Source of the DNA: Flavobacterium paronense
GTDB lineage: Bacteria > Bacteroidota > Bacteroidia > Flavobacteriales > Flavobacteriaceae
Reading direction: 5' to 3'
Assembly (NCBI RefSeq): GCF_030409795.1
Contig: NZ_JAUFQN010000019.1
Location: 2,418,001 to 2,482,000, forward strand
DNA: 64,000 bases
Position numbers and translations under genes: made by a program. The notes beneath the pieces are model-generated. The model was not told the DNA's origin. It searched no databases and saw only the letters and a program-made list of their open reading frames with translations. Shown here one piece after another: positions 47,068-55,320 of the stretch (positions are counted from its first letter, which is position 1; each line of letters opens with the position of its first letter).

Positions 47068-48150
47068 TTAACCATTAATGATTTTCTCCTGATGGTTTAT
47101 ACTTTCTTGGTGAATGGCTTTAAATATTCTTAAAATAAATTCTTCACTTAGTCCTTTATCTTCTCCATCTAGGATCATTTTTCCTAAGATTTCATTCCAG
47201 CGTTTGTTTTGTAAAACGGCTACATTTTTTTCTTTTTTCAATGTACCTATTTGTTGCGCTACTTTCATTCTGTTACCAAGCAGTTCTAATAATTTGCTAT
47301 CAGCGATATCAATATTGGCTCTTAGTTTTATCATTTTGGTGTTGAAATCATCATCTTCTGTAGATGTTTTTTTGACTTTCAAATCTTCGAAGATTTGTTT
47401 TAAAACGGTCGGTGTTACTTGTTGTGCTGCATCACTCCATGCATTATCCGGGTCGATATGCGTTTCAATAATTAATCCGTCATAATTTAAATCCAAGGCT
47501 TGTTGCGATACTTCCTGAATCATATCTCTTTGACCTGTAATATGCGATGGATCACAAATCAAAGGTAAATCAGGGAAACGGCTTTGCAATTCGATTGCAA
47601 TTTGCCATTCTGGAATGTTTCTGTATTTTGTTTTTTCGTAAGTCGAAAATCCTCTGTGAATTACACCTAACTTTTTAATTCCTGCATTGTATAAACGCTC
47701 TACACCACCAATCCACAAAGCCAAATCTGGATTTACCGGATTTTTTACCAAAACGATTTTATCTGTTCCGGCCAAAGCATCGGCAATTTCCTGAACCGCA
47801 AACGGATTTACTGTGGTTCTGGCTCCAATCCAAAGCACATCAATATCGTGTTCTAAAGCTAATTTTACGTGCGCTGCATTGGCGACTTCGGTTGCCATTA
47901 ACAACCCTGTTTCGGCTTTCGCTTTTTGCAACCATTTTAATCCGATAGCACCAACGCCTTCAAATCCGCCCGGACGCGTTCTTGGTTTCCAAATACCGGC
48001 ACGAAAAATACTAACGTCTGAATTTTTTAATTCGTGTGCAATTTTTAAAACTTGATCTTCCGTTTCAGCACTACATGGTCCGGCGATTACTAGTGGGTGA
48101 GATAAATTAAAATCTTCTAACCATTTTTTGTTTTCTGTTGTAATATTCAT
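47068..48150 (-). CDS. Bifunctional DAHP synthase / chorismate mutase
   Basis: A 360-residue fusion. Residues about 1-260 form a type I DAHP synthase of the small KDPG-like subgroup (VIAGPCSAETEDQV, FRAGIWKPRTRPGGFEG, VKNPVNPDLALWIGGVERL, CDPSHITGQRD). Residues about 270-360 form a type II chorismate mutase (KLRANIDIADSKLLELLGNRMKVAQQIG). One protein thus carries the entry step of the shikimate pathway and the branch step towards prephenate. It starts 8 bp after tyrA, fourth in the pheA operon. In such fusions the mutase domain usually confers prephenate or chorismate feedback (family knowledge). Confidence 0.95.
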   Translation of the reverse strand: MNITTENKKWLEDFNLSHPLVIAGPCSAETEDQVLKIAHELKNSDVSIFRAGIWKPRTRPGGFEGVGAIGLKWLQKAKAETGLLMATEVANAAHVKLALEHDIDVLWIGARTTVNPFAVQEIADALAGTDKIVLVKNPVNPDLALWIGGVERLYNAGIKKLGVIHRGFSTYEKTKYRNIPEWQIAIELQSRFPDLPLICDPSHITGQRDMIQEVSQQALDLNYDGLIIETHIDPDNAWSDAAQQVTPTVLKQIFEDLKVKKTSTEDDDFNTKMIKLRANIDIADSKLLELLGNRMKVAQQIGTLKKEKNVAVLQNKRWNEILGKMILDGEDKGLSEEFILRIFKAIHQESINHQEKIING

Positions 48151-48158
48151 AGCTTCTA

Positions 48159-49004
48159 TTATTTTCCGTTTAATATTTCTTTTATTCTGTTTGTATTTTC
48201 CATCTCGTTGAAAATTTGCTCGTAATTTTCATTTTCTAATAAATCTTTGAATTGCGATAAATTGGCAATATATTCTTCCAAAGATTTTACGACTTGCTTT
48301 TTATTTTGTTTAAAAATTGGCGTCCACATGGCTGGTGAACTTTTGGCTAATCTTACTGTACTTTCAAATCCGCTGCCTGCCATGTCAAAAATATCTTTTT
48401 CGTCTTTCTCTTTTTCAATGACAGTTTTTCCTAGCATAAACGAACTGATGTGCGACAAATGAGAAACATAAGCAATATGTTTGTCATGTGATTTTGGTTC
48501 CATGTAACGGATTCTCATTCCCAAATCTCTGAACAGTTTCAGTCCTTTTTCCTGTAATTTAAATGTAGTTTTTTCTACTTCGCAAATGATGTTGGTTTTG
48601 TCCACAAATAAATTTCGAATAGCTGCGGTCGGTCCTGAAAATTCTGTTCCTGCAATAGGATGCGTTGCTAAAAAGTTTCTTCTTTTCGGATGATTTACCA
48701 CCGCTTCGCAAATAGGACTTTTAGTCGAACCAACTTCAAAAACTAAAGTATCATCTGAAACCAAATCCAAAACTTTTGGCAAAAGTCCTAAAGCAATATC
48801 TACGGGAACAGCCAGAATTACAAAATCAGCATCGATAACCTCATTTAAATCCGATTTTTGATGGATGATTCCAAGTTCAATGGCTTGTTGCAGATTATTG
48901 TCATTGGTATCAACACCAATAATAACAGCATCTTTATCCAATGCCTGAATATCCAATGCCATTGAACCTCCGATTAAACCAATTCCTATTACGTATACTT
49001 TCAT
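48159..49004 (-). CDS. tyrA: Prephenate dehydrogenase
   Basis: Oxidises and decarboxylates prephenate to 4-hydroxyphenylpyruvate with NAD(P). The N-terminal Rossmann fold starts VIGIGLIGGSMALDI. Conserved THPIAGTEFSGP carries the catalytic-region His, and HIAYVSHLSHISSFML follows. No ACT domain is present in the 281 residues. It starts 10 bp after the aminotransferase gene. Confidence 0.94.
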   Translation of the reverse strand: MKVYVIGIGLIGGSMALDIQALDKDAVIIGVDTNDNNLQQAIELGIIHQKSDLNEVIDADFVILAVPVDIALGLLPKVLDLVSDDTLVFEVGSTKSPICEAVVNHPKRRNFLATHPIAGTEFSGPTAAIRNLFVDKTNIICEVEKTTFKLQEKGLKLFRDLGMRIRYMEPKSHDKHIAYVSHLSHISSFMLGKTVIEKEKDEKDIFDMAGSGFESTVRLAKSSPAMWTPIFKQNKKQVVKSLEEYIANLSQFKDLLENENYEQIFNEMENTNRIKEILNGK

Positions 49005-49014
49005 GTTTATTCTT

Positions 49015-50157
49015 TTAAAATCGTTCTATTGCCTGTTGGATTTTTTCTTCGGTAACGCAAAGCGAAAATCGTATATAACCCTCGCCGTTGCTGCCAAAAA
49101 TAGTTCCAGGCGTGATGAAAATATGCTTCTCAATTAATACTTTGTCGATAAATTCTTCAGACATAATTCCAGATGGAAGCTTTGCCCAAACAAATAATCC
49201 GACGCTATTTTTATCGAAAACACAATTCAGTTTTTCAGCCAGTTTAAAAATTAGGTTTCTTCTTTTTGTATAAATTTCATTCTGTTTTTCAAACCAATCG
49301 TTTTTCAGTTTTAAAGCTTCGATAGCGCCTTTTTGAATGCCATAAAACATACCGCTGTCCATGTTGCTTTTTACTTTTAAAACAGCGTCGATTAGTGTTG
49401 GATTTCCTAAAACCATTCCAACACGCCAACCTGCCATATTATAGGTTTTGGACAATGAATTCAATTCTAATGCAATATCTTTAGAGCCTTCTACTTGCAA
49501 TATTGACAACGGATTTCCATTCAGAACAAAACTGTATGGATTGTCGTTTACTATCAAAATATTATGCTTTTTTCCAAATGCTATTAGTTTTTCAAACAAC
49601 TCCAAAGTGCCATTTGCGCCTGTTGGCATGTGTGGATACGAAACCCACATCAGTTTTACTTTTGATAAATCCGATTTTTCTAAAACTTCAAAATCAGGTT
49701 GCCAATTGGTTGCTGCAGATAAATCATAATTTACCGCTTTTGCCTGAACTAATTCGGTTACCGAAGCATAAGTTGGATAACCCGGATTTGGAATTAAAAC
49801 TTCATCGCCTTCATTTAAAAATGCTAACGAAATATGCATAATTCCTTCTTTGGAACCCATTAACGGAAGAATTTCAGTGTTGAAATCCAAGTCTACATTA
49901 AAGTGATTTTTATAGAAATCAGCCATCCCTTTTCGCAATTCTGGCAAACCTTGATAACTTTGGTATTCATGTGCTTTGTCATCAAACATAGCTTTTTGCA
50001 TGGCTTCGATAACCGTTATATCCGGAGCCAAATCAGGACTTCCAATTCCCATATTGATGACTGGTTTCCCTTCAGAAATAAGTTGGCGTACTTCTCTCAA
50101 TTTTCGGGAGAAATAGTATTCTTGAACGCTTTGTAATCTTTTTGCTGTTTGTATCAT
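49015..50157 (-). CDS. Class I/II aminotransferase of the aromatic pathway
   Basis: A fold-type I PLP aminotransferase of 380 residues. Motifs are GSPDLAPD, the NPGYPTYASVTEL substrate loop, VNDNPYSFV (with the PLP-contacting Asp-Tyr pair) and SLSKTYNMAGWRVG with the PLP lysine near 235. Its place between pheA and tyrA argues that it transaminates phenylpyruvate and 4-hydroxyphenylpyruvate, or prephenate itself. Relatives are also annotated as aspartate or LL-diaminopimelate aminotransferases, so substrate is by context only. Confidence 0.88.
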   Translation of the reverse strand: MIQTAKRLQSVQEYYFSRKLREVRQLISEGKPVINMGIGSPDLAPDITVIEAMQKAMFDDKAHEYQSYQGLPELRKGMADFYKNHFNVDLDFNTEILPLMGSKEGIMHISLAFLNEGDEVLIPNPGYPTYASVTELVQAKAVNYDLSAATNWQPDFEVLEKSDLSKVKLMWVSYPHMPTGANGTLELFEKLIAFGKKHNILIVNDNPYSFVLNGNPLSILQVEGSKDIALELNSLSKTYNMAGWRVGMVLGNPTLIDAVLKVKSNMDSGMFYGIQKGAIEALKLKNDWFEKQNEIYTKRRNLIFKLAEKLNCVFDKNSVGLFVWAKLPSGIMSEEFIDKVLIEKHIFITPGTIFGSNGEGYIRFSLCVTEEKIQQAIERF

Positions 50158-50237: not shown

Positions 50238-51065
50238 TTATTGTATTCCTCTTTTATATTCTCCTAACACTTTGAAATGTGTAGTCATTAATTCTAAAAT
50301 CTTTTTGGCTTTTTCAAAATGTTTGTATTTTTCAAAAATAACATCCACAAAAAAAGAATATTGAAATGGCGTTTCAATAATTGGCATCGATTGGATTTTG
50401 GTCAAATTGAGTTTGCTGTTATTCATGACATTTAATATCGTTGCTAAACTTCCCGGCGTATCATCCAATTCAAATTTGATTGATGCTTTGTTTATTTCTT
50501 CCTTCGGTAATTCTTTATTTTGCGTTTTTACAATTACAAATCGGGTTTTATTGCTTTGAATCGTGTGAATTCCCGCAGAAAGAATTTCTAAATCGTACAT
50601 TTTTGCAGCAATTGGTGATGCTATAGCGGCAACTCCTGCTATTTTTTGGTCATGAATTCTGCGGGCACTTTCGGCTGTATCGCCACTTTCAACTAATTTA
50701 ATATTTGGATATTGAAGAAAGAAATCAGCACATTGAAGCAATGCCATCGGATGCGAATGCACTTCGGTAATATCTTCTATTTTTTGTCCTTTTAGCGCCA
50801 TCAAATTCATGTGAATATCTAAATAATGTTCACCAATAATGTGCAAATTATTACGGTCAATCAAAGCGTAATTTGGAATTATCGAACCCGCAATCGAGTT
50901 TTCTAAGGCCATAATTCCTTTTTGTGATTTGTTTTCCATCAAGCTTTTTACCAAAGAAGTAAAAGACATGCATTCATCCAAATCATATTCGTGGTCAAAA
51001 TATTCTTGAGCCACTTGATGATGAAACGATCCTTTGATTCCCTGAATTGCAATTTTTGTTTCCAT
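50238..51065 (-). CDS. pheA: Prephenate dehydratase
   Basis: Converts prephenate to phenylpyruvate. The 275-residue protein has the catalytic domain (IAIQGIKGSFHHQVA, GIMALENSIAGSI, NKTRFVIV, where the Thr-Arg pair corresponds to the TRF motif). A C-terminal ACT domain follows (KFELDDTPGSLATILNVM, then LTKIQSMPI where ESRP is usual). The start at 51065 gives METKIAIQG; the upstream open frame runs through the terminator hairpin and is not coding. It stands alone without a chorismate mutase domain; that domain is supplied by the DAHP synthase fusion in the same operon. A leader peptide and terminator precede it. Confidence 0.95.
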   Translation of the reverse strand: METKIAIQGIKGSFHHQVAQEYFDHEYDLDECMSFTSLVKSLMENKSQKGIMALENSIAGSIIPNYALIDRNNLHIIGEHYLDIHMNLMALKGQKIEDITEVHSHPMALLQCADFFLQYPNIKLVESGDTAESARRIHDQKIAGVAAIASPIAAKMYDLEILSAGIHTIQSNKTRFVIVKTQNKELPKEEINKASIKFELDDTPGSLATILNVMNNSKLNLTKIQSMPIIETPFQYSFFVDVIFEKYKHFEKAKKILELMTTHFKVLGEYKRGIQ

Positions 51066-51070
51066 AGTGC

Positions 51071-51100
51071 AAAAAAAAATCCCGATTTTCATCGGGATTT
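51071..51100 (-). terminator. Attenuator terminator before pheA
   Basis: AAATCCCGAT / ATCGGGATTT 10-bp perfect stem with a GAAA tetraloop and a run of nine T. It ends only 5 bases before the pheA start codon, so it must be regulatory for that gene. Confidence 0.92.
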
Positions 51101-51151
51101 ATATTTATGTTTTACTAATTTATTTTTTTATGTAACACAATACTAATCCCG
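51093..51151 (-). promoter_or_regulatory. Antiterminator pair of the pheA attenuator
   Basis: Minus strand: CGGGATTAGTATT (51139-51151, near the end of the leader peptide gene) can pair with AATATAAATCCCG (51093-51105), which contains the 5' arm of the terminator. 12 of 13 positions can pair, counting one G-U. The same leader segment borders GTAACACAA / TTGTGTTAC (51194-51202 with 51132-51140), a competing 9-bp hairpin. Confidence 0.75.
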
Positions 51152-51209
51152 TTTTCTGTCCGAAGAAGAAATAAAAGAAATAGTTATAAAAAGTTGTGTT
51201 ACGTAACAT
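51120..51209 (-). CDS. Phe/Tyr leader peptide of the pheA operon
   Basis: A 29-codon reading frame, ATG at 51209 and TAA at 51120. Residues 7-16 are FYNYFFYFFF, nine of ten being Phe or Tyr. The whole peptide has six Phe and four Tyr. It lies between a candidate promoter and the terminator directly in front of pheA. When charged tRNA-Phe or tRNA-Tyr is scarce, a ribosome stalled at 51162-51191 would free the antiterminator segment 51139-51151. When it is ample, the ribosome would cover that segment and the terminator would form. Confidence 0.85.
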   Translation of the reverse strand: MLRNTTFYNYFFYFFFGQKTGLVLCYIKK

Positions 51210-51228
51210 ATTTGTATTTTGTATTTGG

Positions 51229-51261
51229 CTAATGTAAAAAATAAAAGTGTCGGTTTTACAA
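51229..51261 (-). promoter_or_regulatory. Promoter of the pheA leader transcript
   Basis: TTG (51259-51261), 22 bp, TACATTAG (51229-51236; seven of eight bases of TAnnTTTG). The transcript would start about 15 bases before the leader peptide ATG. It lies just after the terminator of the M28 peptidase gene. Confidence 0.5.
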
Positions 51262-51306: not shown

Positions 51307-52233
51307 TTATCTAATTTTTGGAACTCTCGTTGGTGTGTCTTCTCCTTTTATAATACTTTCTGAGCTGATGGCAATTGCTTTAATGATTTCGGTCATATTA
51401 TCTAAATCTAAAGTCGAAACTTCATCGGTTAGTTGATGATAATTTTCCTCAGAATCCATTTTTGAAGTGGAGATAGTATGAGCCGGAACGCCATAAGCTG
51501 CTAAAGTAGCATTGTCTGAACGGTAAAAAAGATTTTCTTCTAAATATGGATCTTCGTAAAAGTTGAAATTGCTTCCTTTCAAATTCTTTTGAAGTATTGA
51601 GCCAAAATTAGACTTTTCAAAACCTGTAATGTAGGCGGAATTTTTACCCCATTTGCTTTCGGTTCCTATCATTTCTATGTTGAACATCGCCACTACGTCA
51701 TCAGGATTGATACTTTTGGAAAAATAAGAAGACCCAAACCCGCCAACTTCTTCACCCGTAAAGGCAACAAAAATGATAGTGCGTTCATTGGTGTTTAATT
51801 CTTTAAAATATTTTGCCAGCGCAATTACTGCTGTTGTTCCCGAAGCATCGTCATTAGCTCCATTATATACTTTATCTGTCCCGTCTTCTTTTTTTCCTAA
51901 ATGATCATAATGCGCCGAAAAAACCACATACTCCTTTGGTTTCGATTTACCGGGAAGTATCCCAATCACATTATTTGCCCTTTCATTTCTGGTAGTAAAT
52001 TCTTGTCTGTAATTTTTTAAATCATTGTAGTAAGACAATCCTATTTTGGTAAACTCTTTTTCAATGAATACTGAAGCGGAATCAACACCAGCTGTAAAAA
52101 TTTCTCTTCCTTCCATTTTATCAGAAGCCAATTCTGTTTCAATTCTTACGATTTCTTCTTTTTGGATGATTGGTTTTAGTTGCGCTTGCGTGATAAATCC
52201 AAATAATAAAAACAGCAGCGAAAATTTTTTCAT
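51307..52233 (-). CDS. Secreted M28 family zinc aminopeptidase
   Basis: A 308-residue peptidase with a signal peptide ending TQAQ (residue 18). The two-zinc site motifs are SAHYDHLG, NDDASGTTAVI, AFTGEEVGGFGS and EMIG. A His near the end (ENYHQLTDE) completes the set. Family members remove N-terminal residues from peptides. Probably periplasmic or released; no T9SS sorting domain is visible. Single-gene unit divergent from gldA. Confidence 0.93.
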   Translation of the reverse strand: MKKFSLLFLLFGFITQAQLKPIIQKEEIVRIETELASDKMEGREIFTAGVDSASVFIEKEFTKIGLSYYNDLKNYRQEFTTRNERANNVIGILPGKSKPKEYVVFSAHYDHLGKKEDGTDKVYNGANDDASGTTAVIALAKYFKELNTNERTIIFVAFTGEEVGGFGSSYFSKSINPDDVVAMFNIEMIGTESKWGKNSAYITGFEKSNFGSILQKNLKGSNFNFYEDPYLEENLFYRSDNATLAAYGVPAHTISTSKMDSEENYHQLTDEVSTLDLDNMTEIIKAIAISSESIIKGEDTPTRVPKIR

Positions 52234-52346: not shown

Positions 52347-53246
52347 ATGTCAATAGAAGTTCAAAATGTTTCCAAAAGTTATGGTTCTCAAAAAGCGTTA
52401 GACAACGTTTCTTTTTCTATCAAAAAGGGAGAAATTGTTGGTTTCCTCGGGCCAAATGGTGCCGGAAAATCTACTTTAATGAAAATTTTGACCACGTTTA
52501 TCAATGCTGATGAAGGCACTGCAACTGTAAATGGAAATGATGTAACTGCTAATCAAAAAGCCGTACAACTTTCTGTTGGCTATTTGCCAGAGCACAATCC
52601 GTTGTATTTGGATTTGTACGTTCGTGAATATTTGGCATTTAATGCAAATGTTTATAAAGTGTCAAAATCTCGTATTGAAGAAGTGATTCAGTTAACGGGT
52701 TTAACTTCGGAAAGCCATAAAAAAATCGGCCAATTATCTAAAGGGTTTCGGCAACGTGTTGGCTTGGCAACGGCTTTGCTACACAATCCGGATGTTTTAA
52801 TTTTGGATGAACCAACAACTGGATTGGATCCAAATCAATTAGTTGAAATTAGAAACGTAATTAAAAACGTAGGCAAAGACAAAACCGTTTTTCTTTCGAC
52901 ACACATCATGCAGGAAGTGGAAGCCATTTGCGACCGCGTAATTATTATTGACAACGGTAAAATAGTAACCGATAAAAAACTGGACAAATTAGTCTCAGAA
53001 GAAAAAGAACAAATCATCGAAGTCGAATTTGATAAAACTATTGATGAAGCCTTATTAGCAAGCTTACCAAACATCAAAAACTACAAAAATACAAGTGAAA
53101 ATCTTTGGACATTAACATTCTCTACAGCAGAAGACATGCGTCCAAAAGTGTTTGATTTTGCTCAAGATAACGGTCTGAAAACATTGCAGATTAGTTTGAA
53201 AAGCAAGAATTTAGAACAGATTTTTAGGGAGAAAACTAAGAAATAG
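52347..53246 (+). CDS. gldA: Gliding motility ABC transporter ATPase GldA
   Basis: ATP-binding subunit of 299 residues, strongly like Flavobacterium GldA in its opening (MSIEVQNVSKSYGSQKAL). Walker A is GPNGAGKSTLMKIL, the signature LSKGFRQRVGLATALL and Walker B LILDEPTTGLDP. It works with the permease proteins GldF and GldG, which are not encoded here, as is common in this genus. The GldAFG transporter supports gliding motility in F. johnsoniae. Single gene, convergent with the DUF2807 gene 13 bp away. Confidence 0.93.
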   Translation: MSIEVQNVSKSYGSQKALDNVSFSIKKGEIVGFLGPNGAGKSTLMKILTTFINADEGTATVNGNDVTANQKAVQLSVGYLPEHNPLYLDLYVREYLAFNANVYKVSKSRIEEVIQLTGLTSESHKKIGQLSKGFRQRVGLATALLHNPDVLILDEPTTGLDPNQLVEIRNVIKNVGKDKTVFLSTHIMQEVEAICDRVIIIDNGKIVTDKKLDKLVSEEKEQIIEVEFDKTIDEALLASLPNIKNYKNTSENLWTLTFSTAEDMRPKVFDFAQDNGLKTLQISLKSKNLEQIFREKTKK

Positions 53247-55210: not shown

Positions 55211-55291
55211 CCTTATTCCTGCTATACGTTGCAATATCTTTGTCAAAGTTTAAAACTTTGACAAAGATGATTTCCACTGCTATCAGGGCTA
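55211..55291 (-). repeat. Structured interspersed repeat, copy 4
   Basis: Minus strand: TAGCCCTGATAGCAGTGG at the 5' end, then a hairpin of 16 perfect pairs with a single-base loop (arms 55236-55251 and 55253-55268), then GTATAGCAGGAATAAGG at the 3' end. It lies in the spacer after metF in the same direction and could also act as its transcript end. Confidence 0.8.
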
Positions 55292-55320
55292 GTTGGGATT
55301 TGTCTTTTGTGAAATCAGCA

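Follow-up and report, generated by a model that had tools for sequence, protein, structure and literature searches.

Gene content and sequence parts of the pheA leader

The window, a 64,000-nt stretch of the Flavobacterium paronense genome, carries a pheA leader region of about 160 nt on the minus strand, which lies between a peptidase-like gene (51307-52233) and the pheA start at 51065. The peptidase-like gene is on the pheA strand and sits between pheA and a divergent ABC gene (52347-53246). The initial annotation placed the leader before a pheA-tyrA operon, which is correct but incomplete, since genes for an aminotransferase and for a DAHP synthase fused to chorismate mutase (DAHPS/CM) also belong to the operon. 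The start of pheA was placed at 51065 because relatives start alike, and the mechanical list of open reading frames starts it at 51092, inside the terminator. The features of the locus are as follows.

51236-51229, minus strand: promoter -7-like box TACATTAG, with TTG at 51261-51259 and an N22 spacer
51209-51120, minus strand: leader peptide frame MLRNTTFYNYFFYFFFGQKTGLVLCYIKK, 29 codons, ATG at 51209, stop codon TAA (51122-51120) included
51202-51194, minus strand: segment 1, pairing 9/9 with 51140-51132
51191-51162, minus strand: putative regulatory codons 7-16, nine Phe/Tyr out of ten codons
51151-51132, minus strand: segment 2, formed by the end of the leader frame; 5' strand of the antiterminator stem, also paired in hairpin 1:2
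51151-51093, minus strand: antiterminator hairpin 2:3 (51151-51132 with 51115-51093), 19 bp, -13.3 kcal/mol
51100-51071, minus strand: intrinsic terminator 3:4, stem 51100-51091/51086-51077, GAAA loop, -13.2 kcal/mol
50238-51065, minus strand: pheA, prephenate dehydratase (PDT; ACT just under the Pfam cut-off), start METKIAIQG
49015-50157, minus strand: class I/II aminotransferase
48159-49004, minus strand: tyrA, prephenate dehydrogenase, above the NCBIfam cut-off
47068-48150, minus strand: DAHP synthase fused to chorismate mutase, both Pfam domains above cut-off

The leader frame, first described as holding nine Phe/Tyr residues in codons 7-16, is borne out by direct reading, and it provides the short ORF rich in codons for the operon's products that characterizes class I attenuators. 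The chance level was estimated with 5000 dinucleotide shuffles of the window's 241-nt intergenic region, among which none gave a leader with at least nine aromatics in 12 codons and 42 gave one with at least seven. A terminator occurred in 141 of the 5000 shuffles, while the combination of a leader with at least nine aromatics and a terminator occurred in none (0/5000).

Upstream of the leader, the promoter-like arrangement TTG-N22-TACATTAG is present as previously described. The sequence TANNTTTG with at most one mismatch was found upstream of 198/200 leaders versus 1249/2000 shuffles, and in its exact form upstream of 32/200 versus 119/2000, which lends the promoter-like box modest support only. 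The leader of the window is without a Shine-Dalgarno-like word, and such a word was found in only one of 200 leaders; rarity of Shine-Dalgarno words is expected in Bacteroidota.

Competing hairpins and the proposed switch

The terminator reads AAATCCCGAT-GAAA-ATCGGGATTT (51100-51077) and runs into nine T (51079-51071), and GCACT (51070-51066) forms the spacer from the T-run to the pheA ATG. A 10-bp terminator with a GAAA loop ending 5 nt before pheA, as claimed earlier, is therefore what direct reading gives, and an intrinsic terminator lies between the leader ORF and the first structural gene, as in class I attenuators. The complementarity noticed between 51139-51151 and 51093-51105 holds for 12 of 13 positions, with one A-A mismatch and one G-U pair, and folding lengthens it to 19 bp. 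The competing hairpin noticed at 51194-51202 and 51132-51140 is paired at 9/9 positions and, with its inner pairs, reaches -15.3 kcal/mol when folded from 51209-51125 (hairpin 1:2). The antiterminator is mutually exclusive with both hairpin 1:2 and the terminator, which are compatible with each other. Moreover, the locus possesses two further elements of class I, namely an antiterminator that follows closely on the regulatory codons and is incompatible with the terminator, and an anti-antiterminator hairpin (1:2) that involves the leader coding region.

The full untranslated leader RNA of 152 nt has a minimum fold that combines hairpin 1:2 with the terminator (-29.0 kcal/mol, z = -3.9). RNA 51151-51087, in which the 3' arm of the terminator is not yet made, folds as the antiterminator (-14.4 kcal/mol), while in RNA 51151-51071, with all segments free, the terminator form (-16.0) beats the antiterminator (-14.4) as the minimum. 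The untranslated RNA 51209-51087, however, folds as the antiterminator (-16.8) and not as hairpin 1:2, and together with the win of the terminator form in 51151-51071 this means that the switch can work only through the order in which the hairpins form co-transcriptionally. In the window, the antiterminator core begins 32 nt ahead of the end of the stop codon, out of reach of a ribosome that is terminating, and repression must therefore rely on ribosome release and hairpin 1:2. The last aromatic codon ends at 51162 and leaves a 10-nt gap to the antiterminator start, a distance similar to the roughly 12 nt that, according to PMC4833913, a ribosome extends beyond the codon being translated.

According to these parts, the pheA leader is highly likely to act as a class I ribosome-mediated transcription attenuator sensing charged Phe- and Tyr-tRNA. 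The reading is based on the sequence parts, competing pairings, conservation and spacing, from which we infer translation, stalling, coupling, termination and the amino-acid response. Transcription would start about 10-15 nt before the leader ATG, as the promoter-like box suggests, and a ribosome would follow RNA polymerase. When Phe or Tyr runs low, the ribosome would stall in codons 7-16 with its leading edge just before 51151 and block hairpin 1:2, and 51151-51132 would pair with 51115-51093 once this is made, before the 3' arm of the terminator exists; with the antiterminator formed, pheA, the aminotransferase gene, tyrA and DAHPS/CM would be transcribed. If Phe and Tyr are plentiful, the ribosome would reach the stop codon and leave, hairpin 1:2 would capture segment 2, and the terminator would halt transcription 5 nt before pheA.

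That the leader frame and the hairpins control the translation of pheA, through reinitiation or occlusion of the start codon and not through termination, is very improbable, even though the T-run ends only 5 nt from the pheA ATG and PMC4833913 proposes reinitiation at short leader-gene distances, Bacteroidetes included. From the end of the leader stop codon to the pheA start there are 54 nt in the window and from 51 to about 180 nt in relatives, away from the 11-14 nt peak given in PMC4833913. In addition, the hairpin bears a long T-run, and its 5' arm lies 70, 70 and 132 nt before pheA in loci L007, L016 and L026, versus a usual distance of about 35 nt.

Conservation, spacing and codon content in Flavobacteriaceae

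The Flavobacterium set comprises 81 loci, that is, the best 80 of 219 stretches encoding a relative, plus the window. Loss of the aromatic run and of the stem complementarity in relatives had been named in the initial annotation as what would speak against attenuation; this comparison was made and is not refuting, with a leader (at least seven aromatics per 12 codons) and a terminator present in 81/81 loci of this set and in 119/129 loci of the family set described below. The antiterminator forms in 77/81 loci when the 3' arm is absent, and the longest helix between tail and downstream sequence is matched by at most 2% of shuffled tails in 53/81 and by at most 10% in 69/81. The leaders of L042, L053, L078 and L080 stop directly after the aromatic run. 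On record NZ_WIBJ01000028.1, two pheA loci (L030 and L039) lie about 11 kb apart, each with an aromatic leader and a terminator, which suggests a duplication or a mixed assembly.

The same set bears on a rival explanation, in which the hairpin merely ends transcription of the upstream gene (51307-52233) and the aromatic frame arose by chance in a U-rich tract. That gene ends about 0.2 kb before the terminator on the same strand, the region is AT-rich, and the nearest upstream ORF of at least 100 aa, called mechanically, is on the pheA strand in 46/79 Flavobacterium loci scanned; it is, however, on the opposite strand in 32/79. Leader and terminator are kept in all of the best 80 of 219 relatives, while the nearest of two tested neighbours is the peptidase-like gene in only 3 of these 80, the divergent ABC gene in 37 and neither in 40. 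Conservation thus does not depend on this neighbour, and the peptidase-like gene is probably a lineage-specific insertion. A terminator of the upstream gene would also leave the pairing of segment 2 and the ruler-like spacing unexplained, and the shuffles fail to give the leader, so that we give this explanation hardly any credit compared with attenuation of the pheA operon.

The family set was drawn from 149 Flavobacteriaceae genomes (148 genera), of which 130 had a pheA match, one being the window's own, and 129 upstream regions were read. A leader with at least seven aromatics per 12 codons was found in 122/129 loci, a terminator in 122/129 and both in 119/129, while ten shuffles per locus (1290 in total) gave a leader in 15, a terminator in 66 and both in none. 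The terminator finder allows no mismatch and asks for at least 4 G/C; its call in L142, at least, looks spurious, and it missed true hairpins in L082, L122 and L193 (seen by eye) and in several order and class loci. L082 and L080 of the Flavobacterium set appear to be one record, and the terminator was found in the latter. By eye, L106 has a terminator and an aromatic frame truncated where the contig stops, and L189 has a leader with six aromatics and a terminator. A leader was looked for by eye in L142, L143, L144, L192 and L199, and none was seen. The full operon is still present in all of these but L142, indicating that loss of the leader and loss of the operon are not tied. In L143, the region before pheA contains repeats that are almost identical and have GC-rich hairpins (ATCCCGC...GCGGGAT).

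Downstream gene content was scored in the 97 family loci with at least 4.5 kb from the pheA start onward, the sequence being too short in the remaining 32 of 129. The full operon was found in 85, pheA with DAHPS/CM in 9, an operon without a tyrA match in 2 and pheA alone in one (L142), although an absent match may reflect divergence. A DAHPS/CM match lies downstream of pheA in 96/97 loci. When a counted leader was required in addition to enough sequence, 90 loci were left, all of them with DAHPS/CM after pheA (62 with Trp in the leader and 28 without).

The complementarity of leader tail and terminator arm, noticed in the window, extends to the relatives. The duplex of tail and 5' arm is better than that of shuffled tails at the 2% level or below in 93 of the 119 family loci and at 10% or below in 115, and for the duplex of leader start and tail (1:2) the corresponding numbers are 79 and 103. 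Pairing of at least five arm bases is common in shuffled tails (3932/5950), which leaves the comparison of energies as the only informative one. All 119 loci form the antiterminator when the 3' arm is left out, and in 107 of them its stability is equalled by no more than 2% of shuffled tails. A core of six bases in the 5' arm is fully paired (6/6) to the tail in 92/119 loci, in 48 of these by Watson-Crick pairs only, versus 6/6 in 2816 of 9580 comparisons (29%) of cores with the tails of other core types, G-U allowed.

Covariation was counted in 117 rows, two of the 119 being dropped because of a gap in the core or a final core base other than G. Segment 2 was located ignoring the tested position but with the spacing nearest 11 nt, and the pairs were counted by script, as the MAFFT alignment shifts segment 2 by one column between groups. 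At the most variable core position, the pairs were T-A in 67, C-G in 42, T.G in 2 and C-T in 2, and the segment was not found in 4; within the terminator stem, the same core base is paired in 117/117 (35 T-A, 35 T.G and 47 C-G). The next core position gave C-G in 97, T-A in 9, T.G in 3, G-C in 2 and C-A in 2, with 4 unresolved. There were 8 changes on the pheA tree at the most variable position and 4 at the next. Among tree-independent pairs on supported branches, 4 agree, none opposes and one is neutral at the most variable position (p 0.125, too few for significance), and the next position has a single such pair, also too few.

The antiterminator core starts 11.0 nt (SD 1.6) past the last aromatic codon in 117/119 loci, whereas the SD of the core distance is 5.7 to the stop codon, 3.2 to the ATG and 12.4 for the same choice in shuffled tails. 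This fixed spacing from codon to antiterminator is the strongest sign that a stalled ribosome may set the geometry. It also bears on a ligand-binding riboswitch or a protein-controlled attenuator with an incidental small ORF: a structured leader before a biosynthetic operon and competing hairpins are common to such devices, but the kept aromatic codons and spacing, the weakly conserved stretch from leader tail to terminator (mean column identity 43% over the whole alignment) and the Rfam result make this explanation most unlikely. The Rfam 15 scan of 51071-51261 gave no T-box, riboswitch or other family over its gathering score, and Phe_leader (RF01859), absent from the gathering-level scan, reached 23.4 bits (E 0.66) versus a gathering score of 55.

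With regard to what the attenuator would read, aromatic codons in the run of the 119 family loci number 8.9 per 12 in the leader frame, compared with 2.4 and 3.6 when the other frames are read, an excess that is partly by construction, the run having been picked in the leader frame by Phe, Tyr and Trp. The mix of Phe and Tyr, previously said to fit an operon that makes both amino acids, stands in so far as both occur in the run of 119/119 leaders, but the leaders of many relatives also contain Trp (83/119). Trp accounts for 84 of the 2712 codons of these leaders (3.1%), versus 0.39% of PheA residues, and all 84 lie within the run, again partly by construction. The window's own leader is without Trp, which is present in 29/81 leaders of the Flavobacterium set (best 80 of 219 plus the window) and absent from 52/81, and on the pheA tree it switches between present and absent at least 20 times, so that Trp is optional. 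Retention of the Trp codon for RNA pairing was considered and judged less likely, as it occurs in many contexts and TGG is found 0 and 3 times in the other frames of the 119 runs, making a codon function likelier. Leaders with Trp would be fitting for an operon that contains DAHP synthase, and the frequent Trp codons point to a possible general sensing of aromatic amino acids.

Range, related systems and significance

Other amino-acid genes of the same genome, outside the window, also have leaders. On contig C19 of the genome, hisG is preceded by the leader MNTIISQLHHHHSCKQAS with four His and a terminator (about 2847592), trpE by MKNILNNTWWWNSLRQSS with three Trp and a terminator (about 1619490) and thrA by MWNKKNTFSSATATNLLVAITIATTSTTTPIGVYCFI with nine Thr and four Ile (about 1187208), the last without a terminator by the finder. 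A leader was looked for before ilvD and a second homoserine dehydrogenase gene, and none was seen. Three gathering-level Rfam hits lie in the window, all outside 51071-51261, including a SAM riboswitch (RF00162, 60270-60375, minus strand, 76.6 bits, gathering 44.4), which is a described cis-regulatory RNA, and two Flavo-1 RNAs (RF01705; 17100-17181, plus strand, and 55211-55294, minus strand; 76.1 and 68.1 bits, respectively). The data in PMC9723704 are described there as giving no real clues to the function of Flavo-1.

The wider search used Pfam PF00800, and its figures cover the matches listed. In the order, 38/79 genomes had a match, and 8 of 26 loci outside the family had a leader; by coded family, these were 3/3 in f2, 1/1 in f3, 3/3 in f9, 1/4 in f15, 0/1 in f12, 0/7 in f5 and 0/7 in f16. 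The other three f15 loci have terminators and sub-threshold leaders with five aromatics, and the matched f16 genomes are of 0.6 Mb. In the class Bacteroidia, 31/119 genomes had a match, and 15 of 26 loci outside the order, from 10 families, had a leader among the matches listed, versus 1/260 in the shuffle control. Outside the class, with a match in 88/99 genomes of the phylum, no leader was found in the 28 loci among the matches listed, of which 15 came from one family (f79). The helices between tail and downstream sequence of the 23 order and class leaders differ considerably in sequence (e.g., GAGCGGTC, GGAGGCGGGA, GCCGGGACT and GAACGAGC) and beat shuffles at 2% or below in 10/23 and at 10% or below in 19/23, while those of L244, L245, L246 and L252 were not better than shuffles at the 10% level.

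Leader-peptide attenuation is a classical mechanism. The pheA leader peptide of E. coli is rich in product codons and has alternative hairpins and a terminator; pheL reads Phe only, and E. coli tyrA is under separate control. The window leader shares with the E. coli pheA attenuator (pheL, RF01859) the alternative hairpins and the terminator before the prephenate dehydratase gene. Unlike pheL, it is without a Shine-Dalgarno-like word and precedes an operon of pheA, aminotransferase, tyrA and DAHPS/CM. The ilvGMEDA and ilvBN leaders of enterobacteria are earlier examples of a single leader that reads several amino acids from the same pathway, although these are branched-chain and not aromatic amino acids. 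Candidate attenuators were reportedly surveyed by Vitreschak et al. in 2004, with some Bacteroidetes/Chlorobi included, and are said to have been surveyed by Lopatovskaya et al. in 2010 as well. PMC1183508 lists pheA of E. coli and S. typhimurium and the ilvGMEDA and ilvBN operons as attenuated.

According to PMC9723704, a 2021 transcriptome of F. psychrophilum, there are strong clues for leader-peptide attenuation before amino-acid operons, a structured 5' element precedes pheA, and the pheA and hisG elements are present in other Flavobacteriaceae genera. The F. psychrophilum locus of our set (L015) has the leader MNTNNTFYSNNSFYFYWNIGRDCYMVI and a terminator, and the window element is very probably the same as that pheA 5' element. 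The view that such a leader is little described in this group was thus only partly right, being partly anticipated by PMC9723704, which in what it says on pheA gives no mechanism by name, codon analysis, covariation or range beyond the family. Candidate Phe/Tyr uORFs tied to shikimate-metabolism genes appear among the five genomes of PMC6429828, whose account of them mentions neither a Bacteroidota host nor a position before pheA. PMC7366714 mentions sORFs that resemble leader peptides in Bacteroides, though not for pheA, and PMC8305728 describes his attenuation in enteric bacteria, while a term search of the main text of PMC2965389 found no mention of Bacteroidetes or pheA. Among the matches listed, from a search mostly outside subscription journals, no title or abstract opening describes a Phe/Tyr(/Trp) pheA attenuator in Bacteroidota. 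What the pheA leader may add to the known picture is a ruler from codon to antiterminator, its distribution within Bacteroidia, and a sensing of Phe, Tyr and perhaps Trp.

The observation made in the initial annotation is confirmed, and the mechanism it proposed is very probably right. On a broader scale, the pheA attenuator of Bacteroidia may be ancient and predate the order split; in most Flavobacteriaceae genera it would use a single leader to read Phe, Tyr and Trp and would thereby set the supply of the whole aromatic branch via the operon's DAHP synthase, and its near-fixed spacing would imply tight coupling of transcription and translation in a phylum where translation starts largely without Shine-Dalgarno pairing. 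We hold this broader picture, drawn from comparison of sequences, to be evenly balanced between acceptance and doubt. The pheA leader, together with the his, trp and thr leaders of the same genome, is a starting point for covariance models. Its reach across Bacteroidia would be indirect evidence of close coupling between RNA polymerase and the leading ribosome in the phylum, and it provides a specific model, open to experiment, of how Flavobacteria may regulate the synthesis of aromatic amino acids.
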